Below are positions 5,866 through 32,540 of a DNA stretch of 64,000 nucleotides, piece after piece. A program made the position numbers and the translations under genes. The stretch is from Bugula neritina (taxonomy: Eukaryota > Bryozoa > Gymnolaemata > Cheilostomatida > Bugulidae). How positions within the stretch are numbered: the stretch's first letter is position 1; each line of letters begins with the position of its first letter. The stretch lies in NCBI GenBank assembly GCA_964035545.1, contig OZ037772.1, positions 3,294,501-3,358,500 of the forward strand. The letters are read 5' to 3'. The notes under the pieces are model-generated. The model ran no database searches. It was not told the DNA's origin and saw only the letters and a list, made by a program, of their open reading frames with translations.

Positions 5866-5990
5866 AGCCTGTTTTAACAAAAATGCTTTCCACCAGGAGT
5901 CTCTCACAAGGATGGTGACTATGCACTGATATATAAATATACTAAGTTGTAGACTAAACATACAAACTACTGACCCACTATAGTTATAGA

Positions 5991-6204
5991 TGCAATATAC
6001 GGTCCTACTTACTCGACAGTCTGTGAAAGAGTTCCCTCGTGCAGTCTTTACTTTTACTTTCACTCTCACAATAGCCAATATCCAAGCCGTACAAGCTGGT
6101 AGGAAATCCGGTAGGGAATCCGAATGCTTGTAAGGCAGTTAGCCAATCGTCTCAGGTTAGCTTGTAGCTTATCTGCTAAAGACTATAAACCGCATTATAT
6201 TCCA
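5991..6204 (-). repeat. Element H 3' LTR
   Basis: 214 bp, TG...CA in element orientation. It is nearly identical to 16106-16319. It is preceded on the element strand by the purine run AAAAGGGAGGGCA. Confidence 0.92.
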
Positions 6205-6325
6205 TGCCCTCCCTTTTATAGAGATGAACCATTTAATATTCCATGCTCCCCTTTTGGGGGTTTAATAGAAAGCAAAACATGGAATTGAGTACATAATATT
6301 CCATGCTCCCCTTTGAGGAATTTAG
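6192..6325 (-). repeat. three copies of polypurine tract plus LTR-start motif
   Basis: On the element strand a purine-rich run followed by (C)ATGGAATAT occurs three times, around 6325-6294, 6254-6231 and 6214-6192. Only the last copy leads into the full LTR. The others look like duplicates of the PPT/LTR junction. Confidence 0.75.
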
Positions 6326-6443
6326 CAGTATAAAGTAACACATGGAACTGAGTGGTTTGTTGGGCTGAGCAGTAACACCAAAATACCAATCAGCCTGATA
6401 ACACAAAATACCAACCTCTATGTACAGTACACAGTTTGGTTTA

Positions 6444-6599
6444 CCACCAAAGTGGTTTCCAAAATTGCCACCGAAGTGGACTTTAGCCTGACCACCGGAG
6501 TGGACAATAACCTGGCCACCAGAGTGGTCGTGAACTTGATCACCGAAGTGATCATCTTTAGCACCACCAGGGTGGGCTAATACTGTGCCACCAAGGTGG
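6444..6599 (-). repeat. seven tandem tetraloop hairpins, 24-bp period
   Basis: Seven palindromes of the form CCAC-NNNN-GTGG start at 6444, 6468, 6492, 6516, 6540, 6564 and 6588, exactly 24 bp apart. On the element H strand the loops read TTTG, TTCG, TCCG, TCTG, TTCG, CCTG and CTTG. The fifth unit changes both arms together (TCAC/GTGA, extended to GATCAC/GTGATC), so pairing is kept. The stretch also encodes an 8-residue repeat (xHxGGxxx) in an open frame (6646-6233), which differs from the gag-protease frame. Confidence 0.9.
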
Positions 6600-6690
6600 A
6601 CTTCCTGCGCATCCGCTTTACCAGGTGTTTGACCTAGGTCGCCCACTGGTAATTTCCCTAGCTATAACTAAGTGCTAGAAGTCACTACTG

Positions 6691-7589
6691 CTACTTCAAT
6701 GTATTTCTCCAAGAGACCAACTGAGCATCAGTGCTAACTACAGTTAACAGACTATGGTTCTTCAATTCCCTCAAACCTAGTATATTAGACTTAGAACCTT
6801 TAATAACATACAGGTTAGTTACTGTTTTCTTGAAATTGCTTTCTAAAACAACCTCAGCTTTGCCCAACACTGAGAGCTGGGAGTTGTCGGCACTCTTCAA
6901 AACTCTATCACTTTCGTGAAGCTTAAGTGCTAATGTTTTACTTGTGTCTTCAGTAATTGTAGACACATCTGCACCAGTATCTAAAACAAACTCAATATTT
7001 CTATCATTAACACTAAGATTCTGTTTCCATGTTTCAGCTCTATCGTATAGTTCACTATCAATAAATCTAACCTTACTAGAGCTGACAGCTCTAGTTCTAG
7101 GTGATCTCCAAGAAGAACTATCTTTACTATCCACTGACCATTCTCTATCTGAGCTACTACTCCTTTGACTTCTATAGTTACTTCTACTAGAGTAATCTTT
7201 GTCCTTGTAAGACCTACGCATTCTACAGTCTCTTGCTATGTGGGCATGTTTTCCACATGCATAACATCTTATTTTTGGACAATTCCTAGCAACATGCTCA
7301 GGTTTATGACAAACATAACATAAACTGTCTGAACTGCTACTACTACTACTATTACTGCTAGCTCTATGTCTACTCCTATAGCCTGGAGATTTGTGGCGAG
7401 GATAATCTCGACTACTATCTCTAGAACTATATCTACCTTTATGTCTATCATTATCATAGTAAGATGACCTTCTGTCCGTTACTCTATCAGACTTAGTTCT
7501 AACTTCAGCTATGTTAGCAAAGTTATTATTCAAATTAGAACTACTAGATCTAACCTCAGAAACCATCGCAGCAGATTCTCTAGCAATAT
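6691..7589 (-). pseudogene. Element H Gag C-terminus (two zinc knuckles) and aspartic protease
   Basis: This is the 3' part of the H gag-protease frame, cut off from its 5' part by element A. It reads an Arg/Ser-rich stretch, then two CCHC zinc knuckles (CYVCHKPEHVARNC and CYACGKHAHIARDC), another Ser/Arg-rich linker and a retropepsin-like active site (VLDTGADVST). It ends at a stop at 6691 with no polymerase after it. The knuckles would bind RNA in the particle and the protease would mature Gag. The frame itself is open; the break is the insertion at 7589/15029. Confidence 0.9.
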
Positions 7590-7893
7590 TGTGGTGGCTC
7601 GTGGAGCTACCAGCAACACAATACGCAAGGTTGCGTATTGACCCGGAACAATGTATTAGCCAATTAACTAAGCTGTTTGATAAGTAATAGTAGCCGCTTC
7701 GCGCTACTAGCTCAGTTGAGGATAGTGCTGTAAATTAAATAGACGTGCGTATCATTACTGTTGTACATTGGATTTTATTATGTATTCTGGTATTAAATAT
7801 AACAATATCTACTCGACTTAACTGGTGAAGTTTCTCTAGTGTTAAATAGACTCTCTTGGTGGCACATCAACCCTAAATCTGAAAACTATAACA
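7590..7893 (+). repeat. Element A 5' LTR
   Basis: 304 bp, TGT...ACA. It contains a perfect inverted repeat (CAATACGCAA-GG-TTGCGTATTG) near its start. It matches 14725-15028 apart from about two bases (tgttgtac versus tgttacac). Confidence 0.96.
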
Positions 7894-7894
7894 G

Positions 7895-7912
7895 TGGTGG
7901 CAGCGGTGGGAT
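7895..7912 (+). other. Primer-binding site, tRNA-Leu type
   Basis: TGGTGGCAGCGGTGGGAT starts one base after the LTR. It is complementary to the 3' end of animal tRNA-Leu (ATCCCACCGCTGCCA plus CCA). The same 18-mer occurs at the matching place in B and C. Confidence 0.9.
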
Positions 7913-7926
7913 AGTGTATATCAAAG

Positions 7927-8793
7927 ATGGAGACTGAAAACGCTGGAATGCAACCACCCCCAGTAGAAGGTGAGCGTAGAAATGCTGTTAACCCTGTAAA
8001 CTATGAAGGAGAAGAAGCTTATAGACATTACTTGAAAGCTCCCACCTTTACTGGGTCGGAAGATGTCGAACAATTTATACAAGAATTTAGAGAAGTAATG
8101 GAAGTTGCTCAATGGCCGCATAGAGTGGCCCTCATTCAATTGCGGAGAGCGGTGACGGAGCAAGCCAAGCCGTACGGAGTGGGAACGGACGTAAACGGCA
8201 TACTGGCTGCGCTGCGGGCCCGTTTTGGCACCTCCGTCATAGACGCTAGGACCAAGCTGGAGAGATTGTGCCGCACCCCGCGGACCTCGCTGCAAGAACA
8301 TGCCGCGACGGTGAAGAAGCTGGTGCAGATTGCATATAGCGATCTGCCAGCACAACACCAAGAGCGTTACACCTATGACGCCTTTGTCCAGTCCCTAAAC
8401 GACCTGGGCCTAGACCATCACCTACGAGCTAAAGGGATAACCAGAATAGAGGATGCCCTGAAGGCTGGAGAAGCTTACCTGTTGGCTACCCAAATGCATC
8501 GAGCACAGCGGAACCCACCAGTAGTTGGAGTCAGCGCTGCTCGGGCTACGACAGGCTCCGAAGCCCTCCCGCTGGAAGCCGAAGTGGACCGTATGGTAGA
8601 GATGCTGGGACAATTGGTAACCATTCTGGCCGGTGCTGGCCCCGGTCAGGCCTTGCGGATGCCCCCAACACCTGTGGGGCAAGGCTGGAGTAGCGCTGAT
8701 CAGGACCAGAGACAGAAAGGACGACCCCAATACCAGGGGGCGTTAAACTGTCACGGCCCGCGGACATTCTCCCTCCCCGCGGGCCGCAACTAA
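7927..8793 (+). CDS. Element A Gag (288 aa, zinc knuckle lost)
   Basis: The start ATG lies 14 bases after the PBS, and the N-terminus METENAG is shared with element B. The capsid-like region (APTFTGSEDVEQFIQEFRE and following) matches Gag of B and C. Where B has a CX2CX4HX4C knuckle, A keeps the length but has no zinc ligand left (GWSSADQDQRQKGR). The stop TAA at 8791-8793 lies directly behind the frameshift hairpin. Its product would form the particle. Nucleic-acid binding by the usual knuckle seems lost. Confidence 0.88.
   Translation: METENAGMQPPPVEGERRNAVNPVNYEGEEAYRHYLKAPTFTGSEDVEQFIQEFREVMEVAQWPHRVALIQLRRAVTEQAKPYGVGTDVNGILAALRARFGTSVIDARTKLERLCRTPRTSLQEHAATVKKLVQIAYSDLPAQHQERYTYDAFVQSLNDLGLDHHLRAKGITRIEDALKAGEAYLLATQMHRAQRNPPVVGVSAARATTGSEALPLEAEVDRMVEMLGQLVTILAGAGPGQALRMPPTPVGQGWSSADQDQRQKGRPQYQGALNCHGPRTFSLPAGRN
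8742..8793 (+). promoter_or_regulatory. Predicted -1 ribosomal frameshift signal, element A
   Basis: The slippery heptamer GTTAAAC (8742-8748) is in the gag frame as G-TTA-AAC. A 5-base spacer (TGTCA) leads to a perfect 10-bp stem (8754-8763 with 8777-8786) and a 13-base loop. The gag stop follows at 8791. The frame entered by a -1 slip is open and matches the start of pol in element B. GUUAAAC is the known arterivirus (EAV) slip site. Confidence 0.82.
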
Positions 8794-11700
8794 AGGAGTA
8801 TGGTGGAACACGCCGTCGTCTGTCCGTACGGACGCGGCGGAACATCCTACCCGAGTGGCAGGTACCATGCAGGACTAGTAGGCCCGCACAACGGCCCAGT
8901 ACCTTTTCCCTGCCACTCGCTAACCGGTTTCACCGGTTACCTCGGGAGGAGGAGCCCGCCACTGAAATGGAGCCAGAAGGCCCAGTGGAGAGGCCCAAAC
9001 CCCGCCGGCACCAACCTCGCCGCCGGAAGCCCCGTAAACCACGGGTGAAACCCCCGCCGTCCTGTCAAACCAGGGCAGCACATGCGGGGGGGGGGTGAAA
9101 GTACAACCACATGGAGAGAGCTATTTCCTACCCGGAAAGGTGGCCGGCAACGCCGTCACTTTCCTGCTCGACTCCGGTTGTACTACCAACCTTCTCAGCC
9201 GTAGAGTCTTTGAGGCACTGCCCCGCCGGGACAGGGATAGAGTACGACCGTATACTGGAGAACATGGCACCCTGGCAGACGGGTCATGTATCCCCTTTTA
9301 TGGTATTATCGAGCTCCCTGGGCGTGTCCGAGATCAGGCTGTACAGGAGACCTTTATCATAGGTCAACTGGAAGAAGATGCTATCCTCGGAATGCCCTTC
9401 TTGAAGCAGCACCAGTGCCGAATAGATTTCAGCAAGTCGGTGGTGCTGATGGGCGGGCGAGAACTCGCCTGTGTGGATAAGTTTGGGCGTCCCCTGGTGG
9501 GCGGTGTTCAGGTAGTTCGAAACTGCACCGTACCCGGACGCTCCAGAGCTACTATCCACTGCCGAGTGAACAGCAACCGGATAGCCAGGCTCGGGGTCGT
9601 TGAAAGCGCGCACGAAAAGATCCAACTCGCCAGTAGTTTAAACCGACTAACTGAGCGAGGGGAGGTCTTAGTGCAGTGCGTCAACCCCTTTACCGAGCCC
9701 ATTGAGCTCCCAGCTGGGTCAATGCTGGGCCGGTTCCATTCCGTCCAGGAAGAGGACGTGGGCCCGTCGCTGGGTGACGCGACGGAGGCACCCCCTCGAC
9801 ACCCTATTCAGGGACGAGGGGCAGTCCCAACACATCTCCGGGAGTTATACGAAACAGCCAGTGGCGGCTGCGCGAGTAACAGAGAACGCCAAGCTATGGC
9901 CAAGTTACTACGCGACTACGGTGATGTGTTCAGTAGCGGAGAGCATGACGTGGGACTGACTGGAATTGTCAGACACGAAATACCGCTGACTGCAGGGACA
10001 GTCCCTGTCCGGCAACCCACGCGCAGGCTGGGGCCGGAGAAAGAGAAGGAGGTTAGCCGACAAGTACGGGATCTTCTGGACCGGGGACTGATAGAGCCCG
10101 CCCATAGTGCGTGGAGCTCGCCAGTCGTACTGGTCCGGAAGAAAGACGGCAGTTGGCGGTTCTGTGTGGACTACCGCAAACTCAATAGCGTAACCATACA
10201 GGACGCCTACCCTCTACCTCGTATTGACGAGTCATTGGACGCCCTAGCCGGCAGCAAGTACTTCAGTACGTTAGACTTGCTAAGCGGATATTGGCAGGTT
10301 CCTCTGAGTCCCGACGCCCAAGAGAAAGCGGCGTTTATCACACGGGACGGTTTGTGGAAGTGGAAGGTGCTGCCCTTCGGGTTAACCTCCGCCCCAGCCA
10401 CCTTCCAGAGGCTGATGGAACAAGTCCTTAGCGGACTCCATTGGAAGACACTGCTGGTCTACCTCGATGATGTCATCGTAATCTCTCCAGACTTCGAGAC
10501 ACATGTCAGTCGTCTGCAGGAGGTTTTCGAGAGACTCCGAGGTGCCGGTCTTAAGCTCAAACCTTCCAAGTGCGCTCTGTTGCAGCCGGAGGTCAAGTAC
10601 CTGGGGCACGTTGTCGGTCGAAACGGCGTGGCAACGGATCCCGAAAAGGTACGGGCAGTAGAAGACTGGGTCACCCCCCAAGACTTGACCGGACTCCGGG
10701 CTTTCTTGGGGCTGGTAGGGTATTACAGGCAATACATACCAGACTTTGCGGGCATAGCCCAGCCGTTAAACCGGCTTACCGCAAAGGGAGTGACGTGGCA
10801 GTGGACTCCAGTCGAACAAGAAGCGTTCGACCACCTCAAGGGCTGCCTCCTAACGGCGCCCATCTTGGCCTACCCAGACCCCACTCTGGAGTACATCCTA
10901 GACACGGACGCCAGTGACCAGAATGTTGGCGCTGTGCTGTCACAAGTGCAGGAAGGCCGAGAAGTAGTAGTAGCCTACTACAGCAAATCTCTCTCTCCCG
11001 CTGAACGAAACTACTGCACTACCCGCAAGGAGCTGCTGGCAGTAATCAAGTCAGTGAAGCACTTCAGACCATACCTATATGGCAGGAAGTTCCGACTGCG
11101 TACGGATCATGCCTCGCTGATCTGGTTGTGCAGGAGAGCAGAGCCCTCCAGTCAGGTCGCCCGGTGGCTCGAAATCCTAGCTGAATTCTAGTACCGGATC
11201 GAACACCGACCGGGCAAGAGACACAGCAATGCGGATGGGTTGAGTCGCCGACGTGACGGAGGTTGCAAACAGTGTCTCAACATCGAGAGGAGGGATGGAG
11301 GTCCCCCACGATGCGAGTTGGAGACGCTGGCTCATCACGGAGCACCGTTTGACTGGGATCAAGGTCAACTCAGGCAAAGAGTTGATGAGTCCCCGGAGGA
11401 TGTACAAAACCTCCGCGCCAACCCTGTACTGGCCGGTAATGTTCGAGAGCTGAAGAAGCTCCAAGAGGAGCTGCCTGGAGTCGTGGCAGACATCTACCGG
11501 GCCAAAAGGGAAGGGCGACGACCCAGCGAGGAACGCATACGACAGGGATGCGCCGAGTTCCGGCTATACTGTCAGCGTTGGGACTCGCTGCGGATCGGGC
11601 AGGATGGGTTACTAACCATCTCTCTAGCTGCCAGCGGCAGACACCCGGAAAGGAAGAGGGTAGTCTGCCCCACAGCCATCCGCCGTGAGTTGATTTGGGA

Positions 11701-13369
11701 TACTCACAAGCAGGCCCACGCAGGGGTCAAGCGAGTGATATCCAAATTACGACTCCGGTGGTATTGGCCGCAGATGGAGCGTGACGTCCGGCTCAGAGTC
11801 AAACAGTGTGAGATCTGCCAGGCCAGTAAGCATAGCCGCCCCCCTGGTGAAGCAGGACGGCGGAGGCTATATGCTGGTAGGCCCTGGCAAGTAGTCGCTG
11901 TAGACCTGGTCGGACCCATGCCCCTGACCCCCAGAGGCAATAATTGGATCCTAGTACTAACCGACCACTTTACTAGGTGGGCGGATGCTCTGGCTATCCC
12001 AGATGCATCAGCCCCAACAGTGGCCAGGGCACTAGACCAACATGTATTCTGTTATTTTGGGCTTCCCGAACAGATACACACTGATCAAGGCGCTCAATTC
12101 CAGTCTCAACTGATGAGCGACCTTTGCCACCTCTGGGGAGTAAATCAGAGCAGGACCACCCCCTACCACCCTCAAGGTAACGGGGTGGTGGAGCGCAACA
12201 ACCGGATGCTAGGTGATGCGCTCCGGAGTCTCCTCCTTGGACGAGGTCAAGAGGAATGGGATACGGTGTTGCCGCAAGTCATGCGTGCATACCGTAGCAC
12301 CCCACACACCAGTACTGGTGAGACCCCAAACCTCTTGATGCTCGGGAGAAAGACTCGTGTCCCTGACCATCTCACCTATCACGTTCCAGAGCAGGATAAC
12401 TCAGTCCACGAGTATGCCAGTGAACTAGTGGAATGGATGAAGGCCGCACACGAGATACTGCGTCAACAGCAGTGGAAGGTGCGGCACGAAGATTCCGATG
12501 AACCACCCCTCTATCAAAGAGGAGATAAGGTGTGGATGGTCAATTACCGTAGGCGCCGCGGACAGGCTGATAAGCTGAAGCCTAAGTTCGTAGGCCCCTA
12601 CGTGGTCGTCGAGGCTATGCCCAATCATACGTACAAGATTGAGCGCTCAGGACAGGTGTCTATCCAGAATGAGTCTCGCTTGAAACCGTATTGGGCTAGC
12701 CCTGACGGAGTGGGAGAAGCCCCCCCGTTGTTAGAGCCCAGGAGGCAGACAACGACGCGCGGGCGACGGCGGCATGGACCTGAATACGAAGTGGTCATAC
12801 CGCGGGAGGAAAACTTGGTGAGAGAGGAGCGGCAGCTTCTACCAACAGAAGCGTGTCCGCCACCGCCAAGTCTAATTCCATCACTTCCAGAAACCGAGCC
12901 GGTTCCGGAAGTGCAAACCCCCACGGAGGGAGGGGCTCCATCCGGAGAACAAGAAGAGGTGACCACTAACGGTGAAGTAGAGACGCCATTTGAGGCCCCT
13001 ACTAACGAACCGGCAAGCGTGTCACCCCCCCTAGAAAGGGGACAGCGTACGAGGAAACCCCCACCGTATTTGAAAGACTTCATATGTGACTGCATCAGAA
13101 GCGGCGCATATGAAAGTCTAGGGGAAAACCGTACGATAAAATGTTGGAGTTGTGAACCCCACGCAAATATCAACTTTTGCGAGGGCGGAATAGTGGGAGG
13201 AATTAATGCGCGTAAAGCAAATAGTTCCGACCTCGTGCCTCAGAAACGATGCTCAGCCTTTTCTTATGCTGACATCGCCAAAGGCAGACGTATCCCACAA
13301 CCAGCTCCAACCTTACCAAGAACGTTGAGTATGGACATTAATACCGAGTTCCCAGGTAAGCCAGTATAA
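8748..13369 (+). pseudogene. Element A Pol (protease-RT-RNase H-integrase), two lesions
   Basis: Pol begins in the -1 frame after the slip site (RGPQLKEYGG..., then SLPLANRF, both similar to B). At 9083-9092 a run of ten G breaks this frame. From 9095 the next frame carries protease (FLLDSGCTTN), RT (FSTLDLLSGYWQVPL; YLDD in LVYLDDVIV) and RNase H (YILDTDASDQNVGAVL). A TAG at 11189-11191 stands where B has TCG (Ser). The same frame resumes with the integrase HHCC finger (HKQAH...CEIC), the D,D,E core (AVDLVGPMP, IHTDQGAQF, GNGVVERNN) and a GPY module (KFVGPYVVVEAM). It ends at a TAA at 13367. Family assignment is certain. The breaks are seen directly, though the G run could be an assembly slip. 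Confidence 0.93.
13331..13355 (+). CDS. Predicted ORF3 mini-exon, element A
   Basis: ATG at 13331 lies in the pol frame. After 25 bases a strong donor follows (CAG|GTAAGC) in phase 1. An acceptor with a T-rich tract (TTCTACTTTTGTAG) at 13665-13666 opens ORF3 in the matching phase. B and C have the same 25-base arrangement. In A no pol stop precedes the ATG, so splicing could also fuse Pol to ORF3. Confidence 0.65.
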
Positions 13370-13386
13370 GTCTTGTATTCCTATTC

Positions 13387-14460
13387 ATGGAAACGGGCTC
13401 GATGCCAGTAAATTCTGAACTAATTCAGCAGATTGAATCAGAATTACTGGGAACCACGTTTCATGTGAATGACGATGAAGACACTGTAATGACCGACGGT
13501 CTGTTAGACCTGGAGCTAGACACTGTTCTTGGTCAGTCCACACATGATTCATCAGTTCCTCGAGTGCATTCCAAAAGCTGTGACTCTCAGGCTAGCAACG
13601 GTCGACAGTCACTAGAATTATGTTGTAAAGATCCACCGCGATCTAACAATAATTCTACTTTTGTAGACACACTCGCACCCGTCTCTACGGACATGCCTTC
13701 TCTAGAGATGGCATGGGACCCAGAGCCGGCCCCAACAACTCCTACCACCAGGCAACTACCACCCCAGTTGGAAGCAACCTCCAACTGGATTACCCCTGCC
13801 ACAGAGAGGGAAATCAGGACCCATCAAGGAGGTGAGAGTAATCGTGAATGCAACCTCTGCCAGCAGCGATTCACAACCCACCGCAGACTAAAGGTGCACT
13901 TGCCACAGCACTACATCACCACTTTCTGCCCTTGCGGAGAATATAGCTATAACCGTGATTACCTACTGCGGCACCAACGTACTATGCAGTGCTATCAAGG
14001 ACATGTCTATGAAGTAGACGAATCATCATATCCTGCCTTTCTCAACGCCATCAAACCACTCATCACTGACTCAGCTCGGCTATCTCGCCTGGAGCAAGGC
14101 TTCCCTTCCCCGCGACCTATCATCTCTGGAGCCACAGATAAACCTACACAGTCTGCTAACTCTCCACCTCACAGTCCTATACGCATGCCGCATACCTTTC
14201 CTCGTGTCGTACTACAGAGAGTAGACACAAATGCGTATACACTCCCTCCTCCTCTTCCATCCTCAGAGCGGAAACGACACAGGCAACCAACTTCCTCTCG
14301 CTCGTCCCCCTGGGCCCGTAACCTACGTGAGGTAGAAGCTAGGGCGCAGGACTTGGAGCAAGAAGTCTACAGGCTGGCCCCACGAATACAGGCAGCCTCC
14401 AGTGAACTCAAATACTTACAGGAGTCGATTAAACGCATGAAGCGTGCGGCCCGCAGTTAA
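13387..14460 (+). CDS. Element A ORF3: tandem zinc fingers and coiled coil
   Basis: 357 codons from the ATG 17 bases after the pol stop, or about 264 codons if read from the predicted acceptor at 13667. Features in order: an acidic N-terminus; a C2H2 finger (CNLC, 12 residues, HLPQH, near residues 157-177); a second CPC...H...C finger directly after it; a Ser/Pro-rich region with basic RKR patches; and a C-terminal heptad-like helix (NLREVEARAQDLEQEVYRLA). There is no signal peptide or membrane segment, so it is not an Env. C has a homologous protein and B a more diverged one. A nucleic-acid-binding, self-associating accessory protein is inferred; no known family was recognised. Confidence 0.85.
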   Translation: METGSMPVNSELIQQIESELLGTTFHVNDDEDTVMTDGLLDLELDTVLGQSTHDSSVPRVHSKSCDSQASNGRQSLELCCKDPPRSNNNSTFVDTLAPVSTDMPSLEMAWDPEPAPTTPTTRQLPPQLEATSNWITPATEREIRTHQGGESNRECNLCQQRFTTHRRLKVHLPQHYITTFCPCGEYSYNRDYLLRHQRTMQCYQGHVYEVDESSYPAFLNAIKPLITDSARLSRLEQGFPSPRPIISGATDKPTQSANSPPHSPIRMPHTFPRVVLQRVDTNAYTLPPPLPSSERKRHRQPTSSRSSPWARNLREVEARAQDLEQEVYRLAPRIQAASSELKYLQESIKRMKRAARS

Positions 14461-14693
14461 CTCGAGTCTACCTACCACTCCCTACTACTCATTCCCCTAC
14501 CTCTCTGTGGCATTCCCTACCGTAATGGTGGCACGTACTCTATATGTAGATAGGACCTTCTCTTGCTTATTACTTAGTGCACGATATATATATCTGTATA
14601 TTTTTTACCAGTTGTTGTTTTTTTTATATACTTTTATGCTGTTCTCTTACCCCCCAACGAAGTATACGTTTTTTTATGTGAATCTTATTTTAT

Positions 14694-14724
14694 CAGAAAG
14701 TGGGCTTTCTGCTGGAGGGGGCAG
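14694..14724 (+). promoter_or_regulatory. Element A 3' hairpin and polypurine tract
   Basis: A 7-bp stem (CAGAAAG-tggg-CTTTCTG, 14694-14711) is followed by CTGGAGGGGGCAG, which abuts the 3' LTR at 14725. The purine run would prime plus-strand DNA synthesis. The hairpin recurs at the same place in B and C. Confidence 0.8.
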
Positions 14725-15028
14725 TGTGGTGGCTCGTGGAGCTACCAGCAACACAATACGCAAGGTTGCGTATTGACCCGGAACAATGTATTAGCCAATT
14801 AACTAAGCTGTTTGATAAGTAATAGTAGCCGCTTCGCGCTACTAGCTCAGTTGAGGATAGTGCTGTAAATTAAATAGACGTGCGTATCATTACTGTTACA
14901 CATTGGATTTTATTATGTATTCTGGTATTAAATATAACAATATCTACTCGACTTAACTGGTGAAGTTTCTCTAGTGTTAAATAGACTCTCTTGGTGGCAC
15001 ATCAACCCTAAATCTGAAAACTATAACA
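14725..15028 (+). repeat. Element A 3' LTR
   Basis: 304 bp, nearly identical to the 5' LTR. The ATAT duplication follows at 15029-15032, after which the gag frame of element H continues. Confidence 0.96.
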
Positions 15029-15615
15029 ATATTCCTAGTCTTCAAAATATCAGACAACGCTTTCCAAGTGATATTTTCATTAAGCATAAGTTGTCTTCTA
15101 AGATATTCATCTCTTAAACCAACTACTGCCATACTAATAGCAAACCTTTGTCTAAGGTCTTCCACATTAGCCCCTTCAACAAATCCTAAATTTCTACTAT
15201 GTTTCTCAACACGTAGCAAATACTCTAACTCATCTTCGCCGCATGTTTGAGACAAAGTTGCTGCCTTAACCCAAGCCACATGAACATTTTCTGTTTTCTC
15301 ATAGTGACCTTTCAACAAGTTTAAAGCATCATTATGAGCATTATCATCATTCCTTTCAAGATCAAATCCTGAAGATTGTAACACATCAATACCCTCATCT
15401 CCAATGGTATTGAGCAAAGCTAGAAGCTTAGCTTCACCTCTAAATCTATTTACTGCAATATTGGACAGCATTTCAGTACCCATTTCAAGGGTTGCTAATC
15501 GAACTGACAGGTTGTATTTTACCAACCATTTCTTAAAACAATCACTCTGATTATCGGAGCTCAAAACTAACTTAGGAAACCGATTGAGGTCGGTGAACCT
15601 AGTGTTAGTTGCCAT
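15029..15615 (-). pseudogene. Element H Gag N-terminal part
   Basis: ATG at 15615 starts MATNTRFTDLNRFPK. About 195 codons of a helical, capsid-like Gag follow, up to the element A insertion. The frame runs directly into the zinc-knuckle part at 7589 if element A and one ATAT copy are left out, so the insertion is what broke it. A distance of about 470 bases separates the ATG from the primer-binding site. Confidence 0.85.
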
Positions 15616-16105
15616 TATGATCTGAATGTGAGCGTGATATAAAATTTAAAATTTTAATTTTCACTACCAGAAAGCTTAATTATTTTAATAACCCTGTTAA
15701 TCCTTAAACCTAATATTAAATTTGAATTTATCAAATCTAATACTTTAACCGAATTATGAATAATAATATTAATATTTGAATTTCACTGTCACTCCACTAA
15801 CTACTACTCTTACTCTACTGATAACACAAAATAAACTCCACAAATGTATCTCGAATAAACTTTTATAGTTACTCTCCACTGTTTGCCTCCCCTCTATTAT
15901 TTGATTCTGCTCCACTATTCACTTTTCTCCACTATTTGATTCTTCTCCGAACTCCACTATTTGATTCTGCTCCACTCTTTATTTCTTCTCCACTATTTGA
16001 TTCTTCTCCGAACTCCACTATTTGATTCTGCTCCACTCTTTATTTCTTCTCCACTATTCACTCCTTCTCCGCTGTTGACTGTCTACAATCCTGCTGACTG
16101 CGCCA
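15616..16105 (-). other. Element H leader with primer-binding site
   Basis: The untranslated leader contains tandem, pyrimidine-rich (plus-strand) repeats around ctccactatttgattctgct at 15895-16070. The PBS TGGCGCAGTCAGCAGGAT lies at 16105-16088 against the LTR. No ORF of note. Confidence 0.8.
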
Positions 16106-16319
16106 TGCAATATACGGTCCTACTTACTCGACAGTCTGTGAAAGAGTTCCCTCATGCAGTCTTTACTTTTACTTTCACTCTCACAATAGCCAATATCCAA
16201 GCCGTACAAGCTGGTAGGAAATCCGGTAGGGAATCCGAATGCTTGTAAGGCAGTTAGCCAATCGTCTCAGGTTAGCTTGTAGCTTATCTGCTAAAGACTA
16301 TAAACCGCATTATATTCCA
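16106..16319 (-). repeat. Element H 5' LTR
   Basis: 214 bp, partner of 5991-6204. At least one difference is visible (ctcgtgcag versus ctcatgcag). ATAGA follows on the outer side. Confidence 0.92.
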
Positions 16320-16658: not shown

Positions 16659-16964
16659 TGTTAAGATTTCCAGATTTAGGGTTGATGTGCTATCCAGAGA
16701 GTCTATTTATCTACTATAGAACTACACCAGGCTAAGTCGAGTGAACGAGTATATTTTATACACAACTATACATTATAAAACACGATACATTATTTCCAAA
16801 CAAGTTACACATCTAATCTATTTCACACTCTAGCTTCGACTGAGTTAGCAGCGGGAAACTACAATTGCTGCTAACTATCAACTACGCTAATTGGCTATCC
16901 ATTGTTCCGGGTCAATTACGCGACCCTACATGTTGTGCTGCTGGTAGTTCCACGAACCACCACA
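16659..16964 (-). repeat. Element B 3' LTR
   Basis: 306 bp, matching 23856-24161. The purine tract (GGTGGGGGCGG on the element strand) lies just upstream at 16965-16975. Confidence 0.95.
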
Positions 16965-16995
16965 CCGCCCCCACCAGCAGAAAGCCATCTTTCTG
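16965..16995 (-). promoter_or_regulatory. Element B 3' hairpin and polypurine tract
   Basis: CAGAAAG-atgg-CTTTCTG on the element strand (16995-16978) is followed by CTGGTGGGGGCGG and the LTR. It is the same arrangement as in A and C. Confidence 0.8.
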
Positions 16996-17253
16996 ATATA
17001 TAAATAAAAAAAACATTCAATAGTAATTGCATACATCAGTGGACAAAAATAATACATAATATACAGGAAGAGACATAATAATAGACAGAGTCATTATAAC
17101 GATCCGTTGCATACAATTGGCCAGCTGTAGATAGACGAGGAATACTAGCTAGCTGTGGTGTTAGACAGGGGATAACCTGTTAAGCAGTCAAACATTTACA
17201 TGACATCTGGGCTTCTCCCAAGAGGCGGAGTTGGAGTACTCCGAGTAGTCTAA

Positions 17254-18041
17254 CTAGAGTCCTTGTTGGGCACGCCGGTGCTTGGCTTGGCATGTACGCA
17301 GTTTCCGTTTCATACGGCATACGGATCCCTTTTGCTGGAAGAGTCCTGTTGTAGTGTTAAGTAGATCTGGTGCCAGCTGGGTGAACTCTTCTTGTAATCG
17401 TAGGAGGCGTTCTTCTACTGTGGCTAGTCGTACCGGGTCTGGGGACGGTGTCCGTCTGCGGCGTAAGGGTGGACTGGGGGAACTGGTCCGTCTCTTCGCC
17501 GGGGTAGGGGAGATCTCTCCTTCTTCTGGATATGTAATTTCCTCGGGGGTGTATGTAATTTGAGGGCGGTCAGACACCAACGGGGATTGTTGGCGAGCGT
17601 TGTCTAACACACGTTGGAACCCCGAGGATAGAACGGCTAATAGCATGGCTTTCTTTACCAGAGGTCGTATATATGTGAGGAACTCCGGGTACAGCTTAGC
17701 GTCGACCACATAGTTTTCTCCAGGGAAACAGCCCGCCGCTCTGTGTCTGGTGACGGGGTAGGGGTACACATCATTGTACCCGCAGGGGCAGAAGGTCAGT
17801 AGGAGATGAGCATTGACGTGTAGTTTAAGGGAGCGGTGAGAGGCGCAATCTTCACCACAGATCTGGCATCTCGTCCGTCCTCTGGACCCCCAGGCTGTTT
17901 CTATTTCTTCTTCGGTTTGTGGAGACACCCACCGCCAACGGCGGCGTAGTGGCTCAGGCCGATCACCACTAGCATAGTCCTCCGGATACGGAACGGGAAG
18001 TGTTCTATCCCGTACCCTGGTTGTAGCGAGTCGAGTGTAAT
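17254..18041 (-). CDS. Element B ORF3 main exon: tandem zinc fingers and coiled coil
   Basis: The frame is open from an acceptor (CTTTTTCAG, 18050-18042) to a stop at 17254, about 262 codons. There is no in-frame ATG near the conserved start, so splicing from the mini-exon at 18330-18306 is the best explanation. It reads basic RRRWRW, then a C2H2 finger (CQIC, 12 residues, HVNAH), a second CPC...H...C finger, a Pro/Ser/Arg-rich stretch (SPSPPLRRRRTPSP) and a helix (ATVEERLLRLQEEFTQLAP). Finger spacing equals that of A and C, but sequence identity outside is low. Role unknown; nucleic-acid binding is inferred. Confidence 0.82.
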
Positions 18042-18305
18042 CTGAAAAAGTTTCAACAGTGTTAGTACAGTATACTGCTGTGTTGTCAGCTTGAACAGCT
18101 TGGCAACTCCTAATTCAGTTACCTCGTAGAGATTAATGATAGTGAATAGTCAGATAGAACCGTATTGCAATGAGATTATAAAAATCTCTAAGTCAAACTG
18201 AGTTCTTACTACGGTATTTCACTAACCTATCTCCAGCTCGATTGACTCAGTGAGTCAGAGCTGAGCGATGCAATCTAGTTTCGTATTAAGATATAGTTAA
18301 CTCAC
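18042..18305 (-). other. Predicted ORF3 intron, element B
   Basis: 264 bases with donor G|GTGAGT and acceptor CTTTTTCAG. A possible branch region TAACACTG precedes the tract. Stops occur in the ORF3 frame, as expected of an intron. Confidence 0.65.
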
Positions 18306-18330
18306 CCCACGATCTGTTGTCGTAAGACAT
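18306..18330 (-). CDS. Predicted ORF3 mini-exon, element B
   Basis: 25 bases from ATG (18330) to a phase-1 donor. The ATG is in the pol frame, eight codons after the pol TAG. Its length and phase equal those in A and C. Confidence 0.65.
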
Positions 18331-18354
18331 ACTGAATATGTGAAATGGTTTGAA

Positions 18355-21300
18355 CTACTGCTTAGAAACACGTCTACTCTTGACTGCATCAGCGTATGAA
18401 AAGATCGAGCAACGTGGTTGAGGTGCGTGATTAAGACTTTGTGCACCCGGCGGATGAATTTTATTTCTATTTCCGCCGATGTAAAAGTTGATATTCCCGT
18501 GGTGTTGACAACTCCCACATTTGCTCGATTCTTTTCTCGTACGGCTTTCCCCTAGACTTTCATGCGTGCCGCTTTTAACGCAGTCACATACGAAGTCCTT
18601 CAAGTATGCGGGGGGTTGCCTCGTACGCTGTCCCCTTTCTAGGGGGGGTGACACGCTTGCCGGTTCGTTAGTAGGGGCCTCTAATGGCGTCTCTACTTCA
18701 CCGTCAGCAGTCACCTCTTCTTGTTCTCCGGATGGAGCCCCTCCCTCCGCCGGGGTTTGCACTTCCGGAACCGGCTCGGTTTCTGGAAGTGATGGAATTA
18801 GACTTGGCGGTGGCGGACACGCTTCTGTTGGTAGAAGCTGCCGCTCCTCTCTCACCAAGTTTTCCTCCCGCGGTATGACCACTTCGTATTCAGGTCCATG
18901 CCGCCATCGCCCGCGCGTTGTTGTCTGCCTCCTGGGCTCTAACAACGGGGGGGCTTCTCCCACTCCGCCGGGGCTAGCCCAATACGGTTTCAAGCGAGAC
19001 TCATTCTGGATAGATACCTGTCCTGAGCGCTCGATCTTGTACGTATGATTGGGCATAGCCTCGACGACCACGTAGGGGCCTACGAACTTAGGCTTCAGCT
19101 TATCAGCCTGTCCGCGGCGCCTACGGTAATTGACCATCCACACCTTATCTCCCCTTTGATAGAGAGGTGGTTCATCGGAATCTTCGTGCCGCACCTTCCA
19201 CTGCTGTTGACGCAGTATCTCGTGTGCGGCCTTCATCCGTTCCACTAGTTCACTGGCATACTCATGGACTGAGTTATCCTGCTCTGGAACGTGATAGGTG
19301 AGATGGTCAGGGACACGAGTCTCCCTCCCGAGCATCAAGAGGTTTGGGGTCTCACCAGTACTGGTGTGTGGGGTGCTACGGTATGCACGCATGACTTGCG
19401 GCAACACTGTATCCCATTCCTCTTGACCTCGTCCAAGGAGGAGACTCCGGAGTGCATCACCTAGCATCCGGTTGTTGCGCTCCACCACCCCGTTACCTTG
19501 AGGGTGGTAGGGGGTGGTCCTGCTCTGATTTACTCCCCAGAGGTGGCAAAGGTCGCTCATCAGTTGAGACTGGAATTGAGCGCCTTGATCAGAGTGTATC
19601 TGTTCGGGAAGCCCAAAATAACAGAATACATGTTGGTCTAGTGCCCTGGCCACTGTTGGGGCTGATGCATCTGGGATAGCCAGAGCATCCGCCCACCTAG
19701 TAAAGTGGTCGGTTAGTACTAGGATCCAATTATTGCCTCTGGGGGTCAGGGGCATGGGTCCGACCAGGTCTACAGCGACTACTTGCCAGGGCCTACCAGC
19801 ATATAGCCTCCGCCGTCCTGCTTCACCAGGGGGGCGGCTATGCTTACTGGCCTGGCAGATCTCACACTGTTTGACTCTGAGGCGGACGTCACGCTCCATC
19901 TGCGGCCAATACCACCGGAGTCGTAATTTGGACATCACTCGCTTGACCCCTGCGTGGGCCTGCTTGTGAGTATCCCAAATCAACTCACGGCGGATGGCTG
20001 TGGGGCAGACTACCCTCTTCCTTTCCGGGTGTCTGCCGCTGGCAGCTAGAGAGATGGTTAGCAACCCATCCTGCCCGATCCGCAGCGAGTCCCAACGCTG
20101 ACAGTATAGCCGGAACTCGGCGCATCCCTGTCGTATGCGTTCCTCGCTGGGTCGTCGCCCTTCCCTTTTGGCCCAGTATATGTCTGCCACGACTCCAGGC
20201 AGCTCTGCTTGGAGCTTCTTCAGCTCTCGAACATTACCGGCCAGTACAGGGTTGGCGCGGAGGTTTTGTACATCCTCCGGGGACTCATCAACTCTTTGCC
20301 TGAGTTGACCTTGATCCCAGTCAAACGGTGCTCCGTGATGAGCCAGCGTCTCCAACTCGCATCGTGGGGGACCTCCATCCCTCCTCTCGATGTTGAGACA
20401 CTGTTTGCAACCTCCGTCAGGTCGGCGACTTAACCCATCCGCATTGCTGTGTCTCTTGCCCGGTCGGTGTTCGATCCGGTACGAGAATTCAGCTAAGATT
20501 TCGAGCCACCGGGCGACCTGACTAGAGGGCTCTGCTCTCCTGCACAACCAGATCAGCGAGGCATGATCCGTACGCAGCCGGAACTTCCTGCCATATAGGT
20601 ATGGTCTGAAGTGCTTCACTGACTTGATTACTGCCAGCAGCTCCTTGCGGGTAGTGCAGTAATTTCGTTCAGCGGGAGAGAGAGACTTGCTGTAGTAGGC
20701 TACTACTACCTCTCGGCCTTCCTGCACTTGTGACAGCACAGCGCCAACATTCTGGTCACTGGCGTCCGTGTCAAGGATGTACTCCAGAGTGGGGTCTGGG
20801 TAGGCCAAGACGGGCGTCGTTAGTAGGCAGCCCTTGAGGCGGTCAAACGCTTCTTGTTCGACTGGAGTCCACTGCCACGTCACTCCCTTTGCGGTGAGCC
20901 GGTTTAACGGCTGGGCTATGCCCGCAAAGTCTGGTATGTATTGCCTGTAATACCCTACCAGCCCCAAGAAAGCCCGGAGTCCGATCAAGTCTTGGGGGGT
21001 GACCCAGTCTTCTACTGCCCGTACCTTTTCGGGATCCGTCGCCACGCCGTTTCGACCGACAACGTGCCCCAGGTACTTGACCTCCGGCTGCAATAGAGCG
21101 CACTTGGAAAGTTTGAGCTTAAGACCGGCACCTCGGAGTCTCTCGAAAACCTCCTGCAGACGACTGACATGTGTCTCGAAGTCTGGAGAGATTACGATGA
21201 CATCATCGAGGTAGACCAGCAGTGTCTTCCAATGGAGTCCGCTAAGGACTTGTTCCATCAGCCTCTGGAAGGTGGCTAGGGCGGAGGTTAACCCGAAGGG

Positions 21301-22986
21301 CAGCACCTTCCACTTCCACAAACCGTCCCGTGTGATAAACGCCGCTTTCACTTGGGCGTCGGGACTCAGAGGAACCTGCCAATAGCCGCTTAGCAAGTCT
21401 AACGTACTGAAGTACTTGCTGCCGGCTAGGGCGTCCAATGACTCGTCAATACGAGGTAGAGGGTAGGCGTCCTGTATGGTTACGCTATTGAGTTTGCGGT
21501 AGTCCACACAGAACCGCCAACTGCCGTCTTTCTTCCGGACCAGTACGACTGGCGAGCTCCACGCACTATGGGCGGGCTCTATCAGTCCCCGGTCCAGAAG
21601 ATCCCGTACTTGTCGGCTAACCTCCTTCTCTTTTTCCGGCCCCAGCCTGCGCGTGGGCTGCCGGACAGGGACTGTCCCTGCAGTCAGCGGTATTTCGTGT
21701 CTGACAATTCCAGTCAGTCCCACGTCATGCTCTCCGCTGCTGAACACATCACCGTAGTCGCGTAGTAACTTAGCCATAGCTTGGCGTTCCCTGTTACTCG
21801 CGCAGCCGCCACTGGCTGTTTCATATAACTCCCGGAGATGTGTTGGGACTGCCCCTCGTCCCTGAATAGGGTGTCGAGGGAGTGCCTCTGTCGCATCATC
21901 CAGCGACGGGCCTACGTCTCCCTCCTGAACAGAGTGAAAACGGTCCAGCATCGACCCAGCCGGGAGCTTGATAGGCTCGGTAAAGGGGTTGACGCACTGC
22001 ACTAAGATCTCCCCTTGCTCAGTCAGCTGATTCAGACTGCTGGCAAGTTGGATCTTTTCGTGCGCGCCTTCAACCACCCCGAGTCCAGAGATCCGGCTAC
22101 TATTCACCCTGCAGTGAATGGTAGCCCGGGAGCGGCCTGGTATGGTACGGTTGCGTACCACTTGCACACCTCCCACTAAAGGGCAGCCAAACTTGTCGAC
22201 GCAGGCGAGTTCCCGCCCGGACATCATCATTGCAGATCTGCTAAAATCTATGTGACATCCGTGCCGTTTAAGGAACGGCATCCCGAGGATAGCATCCTCC
22301 TTGAGCTGACTGACGATGAACGTCTCTTGGATCGTTTGATCGCGGACTCGTCCCGTCAGCTCAATTATACCATAGAAGGGAAGGCACGACCCGTCAGCTA
22401 GGGTGCCGTATTCCCCTTCGTATGCTTCCATCTCGCCCCTGACCCTAGCACTGAGGGTGTCGAAGAGTTGGCGGCTTAAGAGGTTTGTGGTACAGCCCGA
22501 ATCAATGAGAAAAGTAACAGCTTTGCCTTCCAGTTTACCGGGCAAGAAATAGCTGTTCCCATGGGGCTGCACCTGAACTCTCCCTTCAGGCCTTACTCTC
22601 GCAGGGAGTACCTCCCTCGCTTTGGGTCGCGAAGGAGGTCTCTTGGGACGGTGATAGGTAGGCCTCGGGGGTGCCGAGGCTAGATTCTCAGCTACCTTTG
22701 TGTGCTCCCATCCAGATTCTTGGACTTGTAGCCCTGTGAATCTGTTGTGAAGGGGCATAGAAAAGGCAGCCGCGGGGCGCAGCCCTTTGCTGGTCCGTCG
22801 TGGCTGTTGCCACTGTTGGTTGCCAGTACGCGGTACCCGTCTGGGTGACCTGCGTTTCTTCTTCCCTAGAGGTTTCATCGTCGGCCCGCGGAAGGTGGGA
22901 ACATCTGCGGGCCGCGGTAGTTTAACCCCTGATTTAGGAAGGGACAATATCGGCGGAAATGTCCTTGATTTCCGCACTCCCAGCAA
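18355..22986 (-). CDS. Element B Pol (protease-RT-RNase H-integrase), intact
   Basis: 1543 codons without interruption when counted from the first Met; real translation should enter by -1 frameshift near 22920. The protease has DSG at about residue 162. RT motifs run from about 470, with YLDD at about 592. RNase H has LDTDAS near 738. The integrase HHCC finger lies near 1007-1044, the catalytic D, D and E near 1073, 1133 and 1169, and a GPY module near 1290. A Pro-rich tail follows, ending in VSKQ. Reverse transcription and integration of the element are its role. All catalytic motifs seen are complete. Confidence 0.95.
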   Translation of the reverse strand: MLGVRKSRTFPPILSLPKSGVKLPRPADVPTFRGPTMKPLGKKKRRSPRRVPRTGNQQWQQPRRTSKGLRPAAAFSMPLHNRFTGLQVQESGWEHTKVAENLASAPPRPTYHRPKRPPSRPKAREVLPARVRPEGRVQVQPHGNSYFLPGKLEGKAVTFLIDSGCTTNLLSRQLFDTLSARVRGEMEAYEGEYGTLADGSCLPFYGIIELTGRVRDQTIQETFIVSQLKEDAILGMPFLKRHGCHIDFSRSAMMMSGRELACVDKFGCPLVGGVQVVRNRTIPGRSRATIHCRVNSSRISGLGVVEGAHEKIQLASSLNQLTEQGEILVQCVNPFTEPIKLPAGSMLDRFHSVQEGDVGPSLDDATEALPRHPIQGRGAVPTHLRELYETASGGCASNRERQAMAKLLRDYGDVFSSGEHDVGLTGIVRHEIPLTAGTVPVRQPTRRLGPEKEKEVSRQVRDLLDRGLIEPAHSAWSSPVVLVRKKDGSWRFCVDYRKLNSVTIQDAYPLPRIDESLDALAGSKYFSTLDLLSGYWQVPLSPDAQVKAAFITRDGLWKWKVLPFGLTSALATFQRLMEQVLSGLHWKTLLVYLDDVIVISPDFETHVSRLQEVFERLRGAGLKLKLSKCALLQPEVKYLGHVVGRNGVATDPEKVRAVEDWVTPQDLIGLRAFLGLVGYYRQYIPDFAGIAQPLNRLTAKGVTWQWTPVEQEAFDRLKGCLLTTPVLAYPDPTLEYILDTDASDQNVGAVLSQVQEGREVVVAYYSKSLSPAERNYCTTRKELLAVIKSVKHFRPYLYGRKFRLRTDHASLIWLCRRAEPSSQVARWLEILAEFSYRIEHRPGKRHSNADGLSRRPDGGCKQCLNIERRDGGPPRCELETLAHHGAPFDWDQGQLRQRVDESPEDVQNLRANPVLAGNVRELKKLQAELPGVVADIYWAKREGRRPSEERIRQGCAEFRLYCQRWDSLRIGQDGLLTISLAASGRHPERKRVVCPTAIRRELIWDTHKQAHAGVKRVMSKLRLRWYWPQMERDVRLRVKQCEICQASKHSRPPGEAGRRRLYAGRPWQVVAVDLVGPMPLTPRGNNWILVLTDHFTRWADALAIPDASAPTVARALDQHVFCYFGLPEQIHSDQGAQFQSQLMSDLCHLWGVNQSRTTPYHPQGNGVVERNNRMLGDALRSLLLGRGQEEWDTVLPQVMRAYRSTPHTSTGETPNLLMLGRETRVPDHLTYHVPEQDNSVHEYASELVERMKAAHEILRQQQWKVRHEDSDEPPLYQRGDKVWMVNYRRRRGQADKLKPKFVGPYVVVEAMPNHTYKIERSGQVSIQNESRLKPYWASPGGVGEAPPLLEPRRQTTTRGRWRHGPEYEVVIPREENLVREERQLLPTEACPPPPSLIPSLPETEPVPEVQTPAEGGAPSGEQEEVTADGEVETPLEAPTNEPASVSPPLERGQRTRQPPAYLKDFVCDCVKSGTHESLGESRTRKESSKCGSCQHHGNINFYIGGNRNKIHPPGAQSLNHAPQPRCSIFSYADAVKSRRVSKQ
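22875..22926 (-). promoter_or_regulatory. Predicted -1 ribosomal frameshift signal, element B
   Basis: GTTAAAC (22926-22920) is in phase as G-TTA-AAC. A 5-base spacer TACCG leads to an 8-bp stem CGGCCCGC/GCGGGCCG (22914-22907 with 22889-22882) and a 17-base loop. The gag TGA is at 22877-22875. Pol lies in the -1 frame. Confidence 0.82.
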
Positions 22987-23824
22987 AAACTGACTGTTTC
23001 TCCCTGTGGCGGCGCCGATGGCCGCATGGGCTCTGGGGCGGTACTCACTGGGTTTTGTGGTGTCAGTGTTGCTATCAGCTTGGCTAGCATGTCCGTCAGT
23101 TGAGTGACTTTTGATGCCGTCGCCAACTGGGACACGGCAGCCGCGGCGGGGGTTTCCTCCCCTTGTCGGCCGTGTCTGCGCGGTCTATTTCCACTTGGCG
23201 GGAGCTTCCGCGACTTTTATGCATTTGGTTAGCTAGGAGGTAAGCTTCCCCCTCAGTCAGAGCATCTTCAACGGTGGTGACTCCCCTAGCTAGAAACTGG
23301 TGGTGGAGACCCAGATCGTCGACAGATGCTATGAAAGCGTCGAGGGTGTACCTCTCGCGGTTGACTGGGGGCAAGTCGCTGTACGCGATCTGTGCCAGCT
23401 TCATGACCGCGGCGGCATGCTCCCACAGCGGGGTGCGGGGATCACGCCGCAACCTCTGCAATCGGGCCCTGGCATCTGTAGCAGAGAGGCCAAAGCGGGC
23501 CCGCAGAGAAGCAAAGATATTAACAATGTCTACGCCCAGCCCATAGGGCTTGGCTTTGTCCATCAATGCCATTCTAAGCTTCAGCAGGGCCACCCTAGGG
23601 GGCCACTGAGCGACGTCCATTACGTCGCTAAACTCTTGGATAAATTGTTCCACCTCCTCTTCACCCGTGAAGGTGGGCGCCTTTAACCTGTAGCGGTCTT
23701 CAGCTAGTTCTCGCGGAACCCTTCGCTCTTCTACTACATGGTTAACAGGCATTGTCTCTACAGCATTGTCTCTATGCTCACCTTCAATTGCCGGTGGTTG
23801 AGTTCCAGCATTTTCAGTCTCCAT
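22875..23824 (-). pseudogene. Element B Gag with zinc knuckle, one frameshift
   Basis: ATG at 23824 begins METENAG, as in A. The capsid-like region is open to about 23180, where near AAGGGGAGG the reading must move by one base to continue in the frame holding SQLATASKVTQLTDMLAKL and a perfect knuckle CWECGNQGHFRRYC (CX2CX4HX4C). A one-base loss in a G run explains it. The frame ends at 22875 behind the frameshift hairpin. It is the only one of the three family members that keeps the knuckle. Confidence 0.88.
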
Positions 23825-23836
23825 CTTGGATGCACT

Positions 23837-23854
23837 ATCCCACCGCTGCCACCA
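23837..23854 (-). other. Element B primer-binding site, tRNA-Leu type
   Basis: TGGTGGCAGCGGTGGGAT on the minus strand, one base from the 5' LTR. Confidence 0.9.
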
Positions 23855-23855
23855 C

Positions 23856-24161
23856 TGTTAAGATTTCCAGATTTAGGGTTGATGTGCTATCCAGAGAGTC
23901 TATTTATCTACTATAGAACTACACCAGGCTAAGTCGAGTGAACGAGTATATTTTATACACAACTATACATTATAAAACACGATACATTATTTCCAAACAA
24001 GTTACACATCTAATCTATTTCACACTCTAGCTTCAACTGAGTTAGCAGCGGGAAACTACAATTGCTGCTAACTATCAACTACGCTAATTGGCTATCCATT
24101 GTTCCGGGTCAATTACGCGACCCTACATGTTGTGCTGCTGGTAGTTCCACGAACCACCACA
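23856..24161 (-). repeat. Element B 5' LTR
   Basis: 306 bp, almost identical to 16659-16964. Confidence 0.95.
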
Positions 24162-25231: not shown

Positions 25232-25508
25232 TGTAGTAATTTGTGTAACTACTATGCGTGGGTTCCTAGCTTGTAATTATGTCTATTTATCTACACCAAT
25301 AAAGTATTTAGGTAAAAGTTTCCAAGTTTATTTACTACTAATTATACAAAAGATACAGCATGTACACAGATTAGAGATTACATCCTCGCTTAGTTAGCAC
25401 GCTCTCTCTACTGCAAAACTACTACTAACTAAGGCCTATCACGTGACGCACTTGGATAGGCTGAAGGAATGCGGGGGGGGGGGACGCGCGTATTACGTCC
25501 TCACTACA
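25232..25508 (-). repeat. Element C 3' LTR
   Basis: 277 bp, TGTAGTGAGG...AATTACTACA on the element strand, with a run of about 12 C on that strand. Partner at 32541-32814. Confidence 0.95.
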
Positions 25509-25539
25509 CCGCCCCCCCAGCAGAAAGCCCTACTTTCTG
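25509..25539 (-). promoter_or_regulatory. Element C 3' hairpin and polypurine tract
   Basis: CAGAAAG-taggg-CTTTCTG on the element strand (25539-25521) is followed by CTGGGGGGGCGG and the LTR. Confidence 0.8.
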
Positions 25540-26954: not shown

Positions 26955-26985
26955 GAGTGGAAATGTTAGCTCAGAGCAAGCTTAC

Positions 26986-27010: not shown

Positions 27011-27019
27011 ACTCAGCGT

Positions 27020-32479: not shown

Positions 32480-32521
32480 GATGTTCTAATACTTCTCATT
32501 GTTCTTATACAGTAGCTAGAA

Positions 32522-32539: not shown

Positions 32540-32540
32540 C

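Follow-up and report, generated by a model that had tools for sequence, protein, structure and literature searches.

A spliced zinc-finger accessory gene in the envelope position of Ty3/gypsy elements of Bugula neritina

In Rous sarcoma virus (RSV), gag codons are fused to Env by a splice. The gag AUG of RSV lies at nt 380 and the splice donor at nt 397 (PMC5035971). In errantiviruses such as gypsy, env is the third gene, placed after pol and expressed from a spliced subgenomic message (PMC4276936), and the third ORFs of bdelloid rotifer LTR elements are varied captured genes in the env position, typically expressed from spliced messages (PMC5408684). Cer1, a Ty3/gypsy element of C. elegans that must export unspliced RNA, carries in the env position a non-envelope protein, CERV, made from a spliced message that begins with exons in the gag frame; CERV is nuclear and has a basic stretch and a leucine-zipper-like motif (PMC10309623). 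We describe three elements in a 64,000-nt stretch of the B. neritina genome (the window) whose third ORF, ORF3, is a conserved, spliced accessory gene, and for which the splice junction predicted in an initial annotation is right.

Three elements with a third ORF 3' of pol

The window lies in contig C8 of the genome that we searched (216 Mb, with at least nine contigs longer than 10 Mb). It contains three related Ty3/gypsy elements: A on the forward strand (7590–15028), and B (16659–24161) and C (25232–32814) on the reverse strand. Each has LTRs, gag, protease, RT, RNase H and integrase, and then a third ORF 3' of pol. The domain order protease-RT-RNase H-integrase, assigned with Pfam, is that of Ty3/gypsy elements (Metaviridae), and the LTR ends, judged by eye, are the TG..CA of Ty3/gypsy LTRs (TGTG..AACA in A). 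The sequence TGGTGGCAGCGGTGGGA, which starts one base 3' of the A 5' LTR, presumably fits the end of a leucine tRNA. Target duplications are 4 bp long in three intron-less B copies described below, and ATAT flanks A on both sides. The Troyka superfamily, with CG..CG LTR ends and 3-bp duplications (PMC12440569), is excluded by the TG..CA ends and 4-bp duplications. The features are as follows.

7590–7893, forward: A 5' LTR (TG..CA; ATAT on both flanks)
7927–7969, forward: A first 43 nt of gag, up to the phase-1 donor AAG/GTGAGC (GT at 7970); would be the first coding exon in the proposed ORF3 message
9095–13369, forward: A pol (protease, RT, RNase H, integrase), with a stop at 11189–11191 and possibly more stops just 3' of it
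13331–13355, forward: A mini-exon, ATG plus 22 nt, ending in phase 1
13356–13666, forward: A intron, GTAAGC..CTAAC..TTTTGTAG; doubles as code for the N-terminus of long ORF3
13387–14460, forward: A ORF3, unspliced long form, 357 codons
13613–13657, forward: A possible hairpin that includes the branch-point-like CTAAC, with the last nine intron bases outside it; weak covariation
13667–14460, forward: A ORF3 main exon, with C2H2 and C2HC fingers, basic region and long helix
14725–15028, forward: A 3' LTR
16659–16964, reverse: B 3' LTR
17254–18041, reverse: B ORF3 main exon, without an ATG upstream of the fingers
18042–18305, reverse: B intron, with stops in all frames; precisely absent from four genomic copies
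18306–18330, reverse: B mini-exon, with TTCAG/T directly upstream
23782–23824, reverse: B first 43 nt of gag, up to the phase-1 donor (GT at 23781–23780)
23856–24161, reverse: B 5' LTR
25232–25508, reverse: C 3' LTR
25866–26954, reverse: C ORF3, unspliced long form, 362 codons
25866–26668, reverse: C ORF3 main exon
26669–26985, reverse: C intron, also coding
26986–27010, reverse: C mini-exon
32449–32479, reverse: C first 31 nt of gag, up to the phase-1 donor GAG/GTGAGC (GT at 32448–32447)
32541–32814, reverse: C 5' LTR

Identical 215-bp repeats at 5990–6204 and 16105–16319 bracket A, and between them lie, as named by eye, a gag-like ORF (14977–15615) and an ORF (6691–7566) with CCHC- and protease-like stretches; no RT ORF was seen between the repeats outside A. 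Thus, A may sit inside another element on the minus strand (5990–16319), perhaps a gag-only non-autonomous one. The LTRs of the B copy in the window are nearly identical (1/306 positions differ) and its flanks are unmatched (ATGG/ATAT), so this copy may be recombinant or its site may have changed. When the pol genes of A (9095–13369) and B (18355–22986) are compared, their synonymous difference forms a mosaic: it is ~0.9 by the protease end, drops to almost 0 across most of RT to integrase and climbs again at the pol end, which looks like recent recombination between families; ORF3 of A and B is only 31% identical, unlike the near-identical middle of pol. Tandem repeats with units of 16 bp and 23 bp form long arrays at positions 1–592 and 2110 to ~3440.

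Splice signals, intron-less copies and a coding intron

According to the initial annotation, ORF3 of each element is preceded by a mini-exon of 25 nt that begins with ATG and joins the main exon in phase 1 at an Asp codon. We found all of these features where they had been placed, with donors at 13356 (A), 18305 (B) and 26985 (C), second exons starting at 13667, 18041 and 26668, and introns of 311, 264 and 317 nt, respectively. The mini-exon donor, described as strong, ranks first among 380 GT dinucleotides of the sense strand in A, second among 390 in B and first among 356 in C, as scored with a simple matrix. The ORF3 acceptor ranks second of 543 AG dinucleotides (A), eighth of 553 (B) and sixth of 518 (C).

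These signals are kept throughout the families. ATG, 25-nt length, GT and AG were intact in 20/20 fetched A copies and 40/40 fetched C-type copies, a conservation of signals that exceeds chance. The 40 fetched B copies comprised three intron-less copies, three that are rearranged or unaligned at this site (L082, L087 and L095), one fetched on the wrong side (L096) and 33 others, all of which keep the GT and 32 the AG. Codons 2 and 3 of the mini-exon vary freely among subfamilies, with ATG and length constant. Allowing at most one mismatch, the genome holds 145 matches to the A mini-exon and 150 to that of B, compared with none for the reversed-pattern control.

Direct evidence for splicing came from a gapped pattern for the B junction, which located four places in the genome with the identical, base-exact join and the intron gone (reversed-pattern control, 0). 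All four copies are full length and lie between two LTRs, which differ at 0/306, 0/307, 0/309 and 11/307 positions; the target duplications are perfect in three (GTAC, CACG and ATAT) and one base off in the fourth (ATAC/ATAT). These copies were reverse-transcribed from RNA that had lost just the small intron and retained pol. The mini-exon donor and the acceptor are therefore used in B. In a tree of 36 fetched B copies, the B of the window and the fourth intron-less copy (L082, L087, L095 and L096 were left out), the nearest intron-bearing neighbour of an intron-less copy was 0.3% (L073), 0.7% (L089), 0.5% (L091) or 4.2% (L111) away. L073 and L089 may stem from a single event, and the distances point to at least three and at most four events in all. 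L111 (G000:C4:19374000-19382400) belongs to a diverged B subfamily, 13–14% distant from the other intron-less copies and with LTRs ~81% identical to those of B; its own LTR pair is identical, which indicates a recent insertion. The copy with 11/307 LTR differences and an imperfect target duplication (L112, G000:C6:6198700-6207100) is unlike the other three, and appears to be older or recombined. Were the intron-less copies DNA deletions, they would have no bearing on splicing, but this explanation has nothing beyond its general possibility in its favor and is contradicted by the base-exact GT/AG join shared by four copies, which are full length, carry target duplications and go back to three or more events; we regard it as extremely improbable.

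The same kind of genome search returned no intron-less copy of A, C or the C2 subfamily. The predicted junction is thus borne out in B by four retrocopies, and in A, C and C2 it is backed by conserved signals only. The numbers themselves, four intron-less copies for ~150 B mini-exons versus none for ~145 of A, are suggestive only.

A feature absent from the initial annotation is that the introns of A and C are open in the ORF3 frame from an ATG of their own (13387 and 26954). Counted from the first base of the donor GT, this ATG comes 31 nt downstream in A and C; the spacing is 30 or 31 nt in the majority of the remaining intact copies. The 357-residue form has eleven database homologues (JGI or ENA), which align over 98–100% of its length, N-terminal block included, at 49–73% identity. 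From 62 sequences, of which eight without an ORF longer than 250 codons were unused, we drew 11 representatives (55 pairs), sets that lean towards copies with an intact ORF; pS and pN were 0.32 and 0.16 in the intron minus its last nine codons, 0.026 and 0.093 in those nine codons, and 0.72 and 0.27 in exon 2. Among 13 aligned introns, all indels 3' of the ATG are 3 or 9 nt long, and the single 1-nt gap falls 5' of it. The whole-codon indels, the excess of pS over pN and the homologous N-terminus together indicate that the A and C introns encode protein; both parts of ORF3 are conserved as protein. The B intron has stops in all frames, and its main exon, as previously noted, has no in-frame ATG upstream of the fingers; B therefore needs a splice or another kind of start.

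These observations bear on the possibility that A and C make ORF3 from intron-retaining RNA, starting at 13387 and 26954, with splicing minor or lost and only B relying on it. The long form is conserved inside and outside the host genome and no intron-less A or C copies were found, both in line with such a scheme. However, donor and acceptor persist in 60/60 fetched A/C-type copies, the contrast of 0 in ~145 with 4 in ~150 is no more than suggestive, and synonymous change is frozen at the acceptor, so that we consider it unlikely. Among eight representatives, pS is 0.06 in the last 12 codons 5' of the acceptor versus 0.52–0.89 in the windows after it, nearly nil and explained by the splice signals, hairpin or no hairpin. 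Between A and C, pS for the bulk of the intron equals that of pol (0.58), so only the acceptor end is special there, and low intron divergence was accordingly rejected as proof of RNA constraint over the whole intron. In closer pairs the intron changes more slowly than exon 2, a pattern that recombination could also give.

In A/C types, the CTAAC stretch before the acceptor can form an interrupted hairpin of 17 pairs that leaves the last nine intron bases free. Its z-scores range from −1.5 to −3.5 in six sequences, compared with −0.2 for B, in which folding did not reveal the hairpin. In A and L068 the minimum-energy fold differs and keeps only the inner hairpin pairs; in A the hairpin is the centroid. 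Twelve of the 17 pairs are invariant and one has changed on both sides (co-varying); 25/500 shuffles matched the paired percentage and covariation score, and 484/500 matched the number of pairs changed on both sides. That the hairpin might act as a brake on splicing is a guess.

Two candidate donors for one acceptor

In each element, the two best donors among the 380, 390 and 356 sense-strand GT dinucleotides of A, B and C (same simple matrix) are the mini-exon donor and a second one just inside gag, 43 (A), 43 (B) or 31 nt (C) after the gag ATG. This gag donor ranks second in A and C and first in B. Among 17 readable leaders (three from the window, four from the elements with intron-less copies and 10 of 20 fetched; the other 10 were left out as no primer site was found), all 17 have GGTRAGC at 31 or 43 nt in phase 1, across gag N-termini of five unlike types; L140, with a weak exon side, scores below the 4.5 cut-off. 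Being in phase 1, the gag donor would join the ORF3 acceptor in frame through a single splice, a simpler route of the env type. Given its presence in frame in 17/17 leaders, the main ORF3 message would more likely arise by an env-type subgenomic splice, and the mini-exon would be an alternative.

The initial annotation had ORF3 made by splicing from the mini-exon. As the chief start of ORF3, the mini-exon ATG would belong either to a message with an internal start, as its first exon, or to a 26-nt internal exon (AG/T-ATG). Three observations agree with this account: the junction is used in B, as the four intron-less copies demonstrate; ATG and 25-nt length are constant despite the differences in codons 2 and 3 between subfamilies; and the acceptor-like site just 5' of the B mini-exon is fair, ranking 14 of 553. 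The corresponding sites in A (413/543) and C (350/518) are poor, however, and simple arithmetic puts the gag AUG out of the ORF3 frame when the mini-exon follows the gag exon. Moreover, the intron-less copies retain pol and so record a small intron cut out of genomic-length RNA instead of a short message. The mini-exon ATG of A lies ~5.4 kb from its 5' LTR. With the in-frame gag donor of all 17 leaders and the poor acceptors of A and C, the mini-exon does not suffice as the whole account of the ORF3 message; its role as the main message start is probably mistaken, and we would give this account only a minor share of belief.

Copies that record a leader splice did not emerge from the searches. 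A leader/LTR probe detected no leader upstream of ORF3 among 100 fetched copies, whose sequence extends no more than ~600 nt upstream, and in each of 19 additional B copies the intron precedes exon 2, with no leader-ORF3 join. Two genome pattern searches for copies spliced from leader to mini-exon or from leader to ORF3 gave three (L093, L085 and C1:19736819) and zero matches, and neither of the two inspected was confirmed: L093 aligns through the pol end, and L085, when fetched, has an ordinary intron start.

We favor, with a probability of about 0.55 for the explanation as a whole, including a nuclear ORF3, the following model. A, B and C, Ty3/gypsy elements of the layout LTR-gag-pol-ORF3-LTR, would express ORF3 through splicing to a single acceptor, where its main exon begins. 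Two phase-1 donors fit this acceptor, the gag donor (31 or 43 nt in) and that of the 25-nt mini-exon. The gag donor would yield an env-type subgenomic message translated from the gag AUG, in which 10 or 14 gag residues are followed by Asp and ORF3. The mini-exon at the end of pol would provide its own AUG as a competing or alternative first coding exon, and A/C-type elements would have a third, unspliced N-terminus inside the 3' intron. The hairpin beside the acceptor may hold back splicing so that genomic RNA stays whole. We infer both the use of the gag donor and the proportions of the forms. A fuller scheme, a regulatory gene like those of complex retroviruses, is tentative and a good deal less probable: one ORF3 body with three N-termini (gag-fused, mini-exon and intron-encoded), two competing phase-1 donors, a structured acceptor that doubles as splice signal and protein code, and zinc-finger feedback on the splicing or export of the element's own RNA.

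The ORF3 protein and its counterparts in other elements

ORF3 in the env position encodes a conserved protein with a long helix and, as the initial annotation proposed, two zinc fingers, which we assign as C2H2 and C2HC. The fingers and helix are predicted with confidence, C2H2-pair matches were found, and the Cys2-His2 spacing and fold are those of a C2H2 zinc finger. In a PDB sequence search with the ORF3 alignment (46 matches to E 1), the best match, at 0.0025, is a single C2H2 finger stretch; bZIP-like matches to the tail, none better than 0.037, are not claimed. A BFVD fold search gave 31 matches to E 10, none at or below 0.001, and 31 stretches fit a pattern in an IMG/VR scan for relatives, none of them confirmed by tblastn.

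The highest 19-residue mean hydropathy is 0.46 in A, 0.93 in C and 1.24 in B (from 17928 on). By this measure a membrane-like stretch is lacking from all three ORF3 proteins, and no Env family occurs among Pfam matches to E 1; an envelope of the errantivirus type, with signal peptide and transmembrane stretch, was rejected on these grounds. ORF3 would instead be a non-envelope protein of a nuclear type, as judged from the fingers and Arg/Lys stretches, a reading that forms part of the favored model. Its task would be a nuclear one, acting on RNA or DNA of the element itself, for instance by exporting or protecting unspliced RNA, the role that CERV has in Cer1. A different task might be read from gag, as Pfam detected no CCHC knuckle in A gag (7927–8793; the stretch from 8793 to 9095 was left out of the search), in B gag (23096–23824) and pol ORFs, or in the C gag-pol ORF (27020–32479). 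The two fingers and long helix of ORF3 could then substitute for the knuckles in a packaging or nucleocapsid helper. C gag has Arg/Lys-rich stretches (by eye) that may suffice for this purpose, and we hold the helper role to be distinctly doubtful.

The initial annotation knew of no described element with this accessory gene. The novelty is partial, since a spliced non-Env protein in the env position is known in Cer1 (PMC10309623). A gypsy element with such an ORF3 was not found in the open-access literature, among the matches listed, most subscription papers and repeat databases being outside the search. The third ORFs of bdelloid elements, as described in PMC5408684, are Env, GDSL esterase, DEDDy nuclease or membrane/coiled-coil types, unlike the zinc-finger ORF3, and the main text of that paper does not contain the word zinc. 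The RSV donor lies just inside gag, like the gag donor of A, B and C. In contrast to the env products of errantiviruses and RSV, ORF3 is without a membrane-like stretch and has zinc fingers.

CERV and ORF3 share the nature of a non-envelope protein in the env position, and the splicing of ORF3 to a gag donor is our proposal. CERV is encoded by five exons and has 517 residues, with no zinc finger mentioned in the cited sections (PMC10309623), whereas ORF3 has fingers. A, B and C further differ from Cer1 in a short 3' intron preceded by an exon that has its own ATG; in A and C that intron is coding. The A/C intron is a compact overlap of protein code and splice signal. The intron-less retrocopies provide a natural record of splicing where RNA is not at hand. 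If the proposed reading is correct, complex splicing control with a dedicated accessory protein would not be confined to vertebrate complex retroviruses and Cer1, and a further gypsy lineage would exert such control, through a zinc-finger protein.
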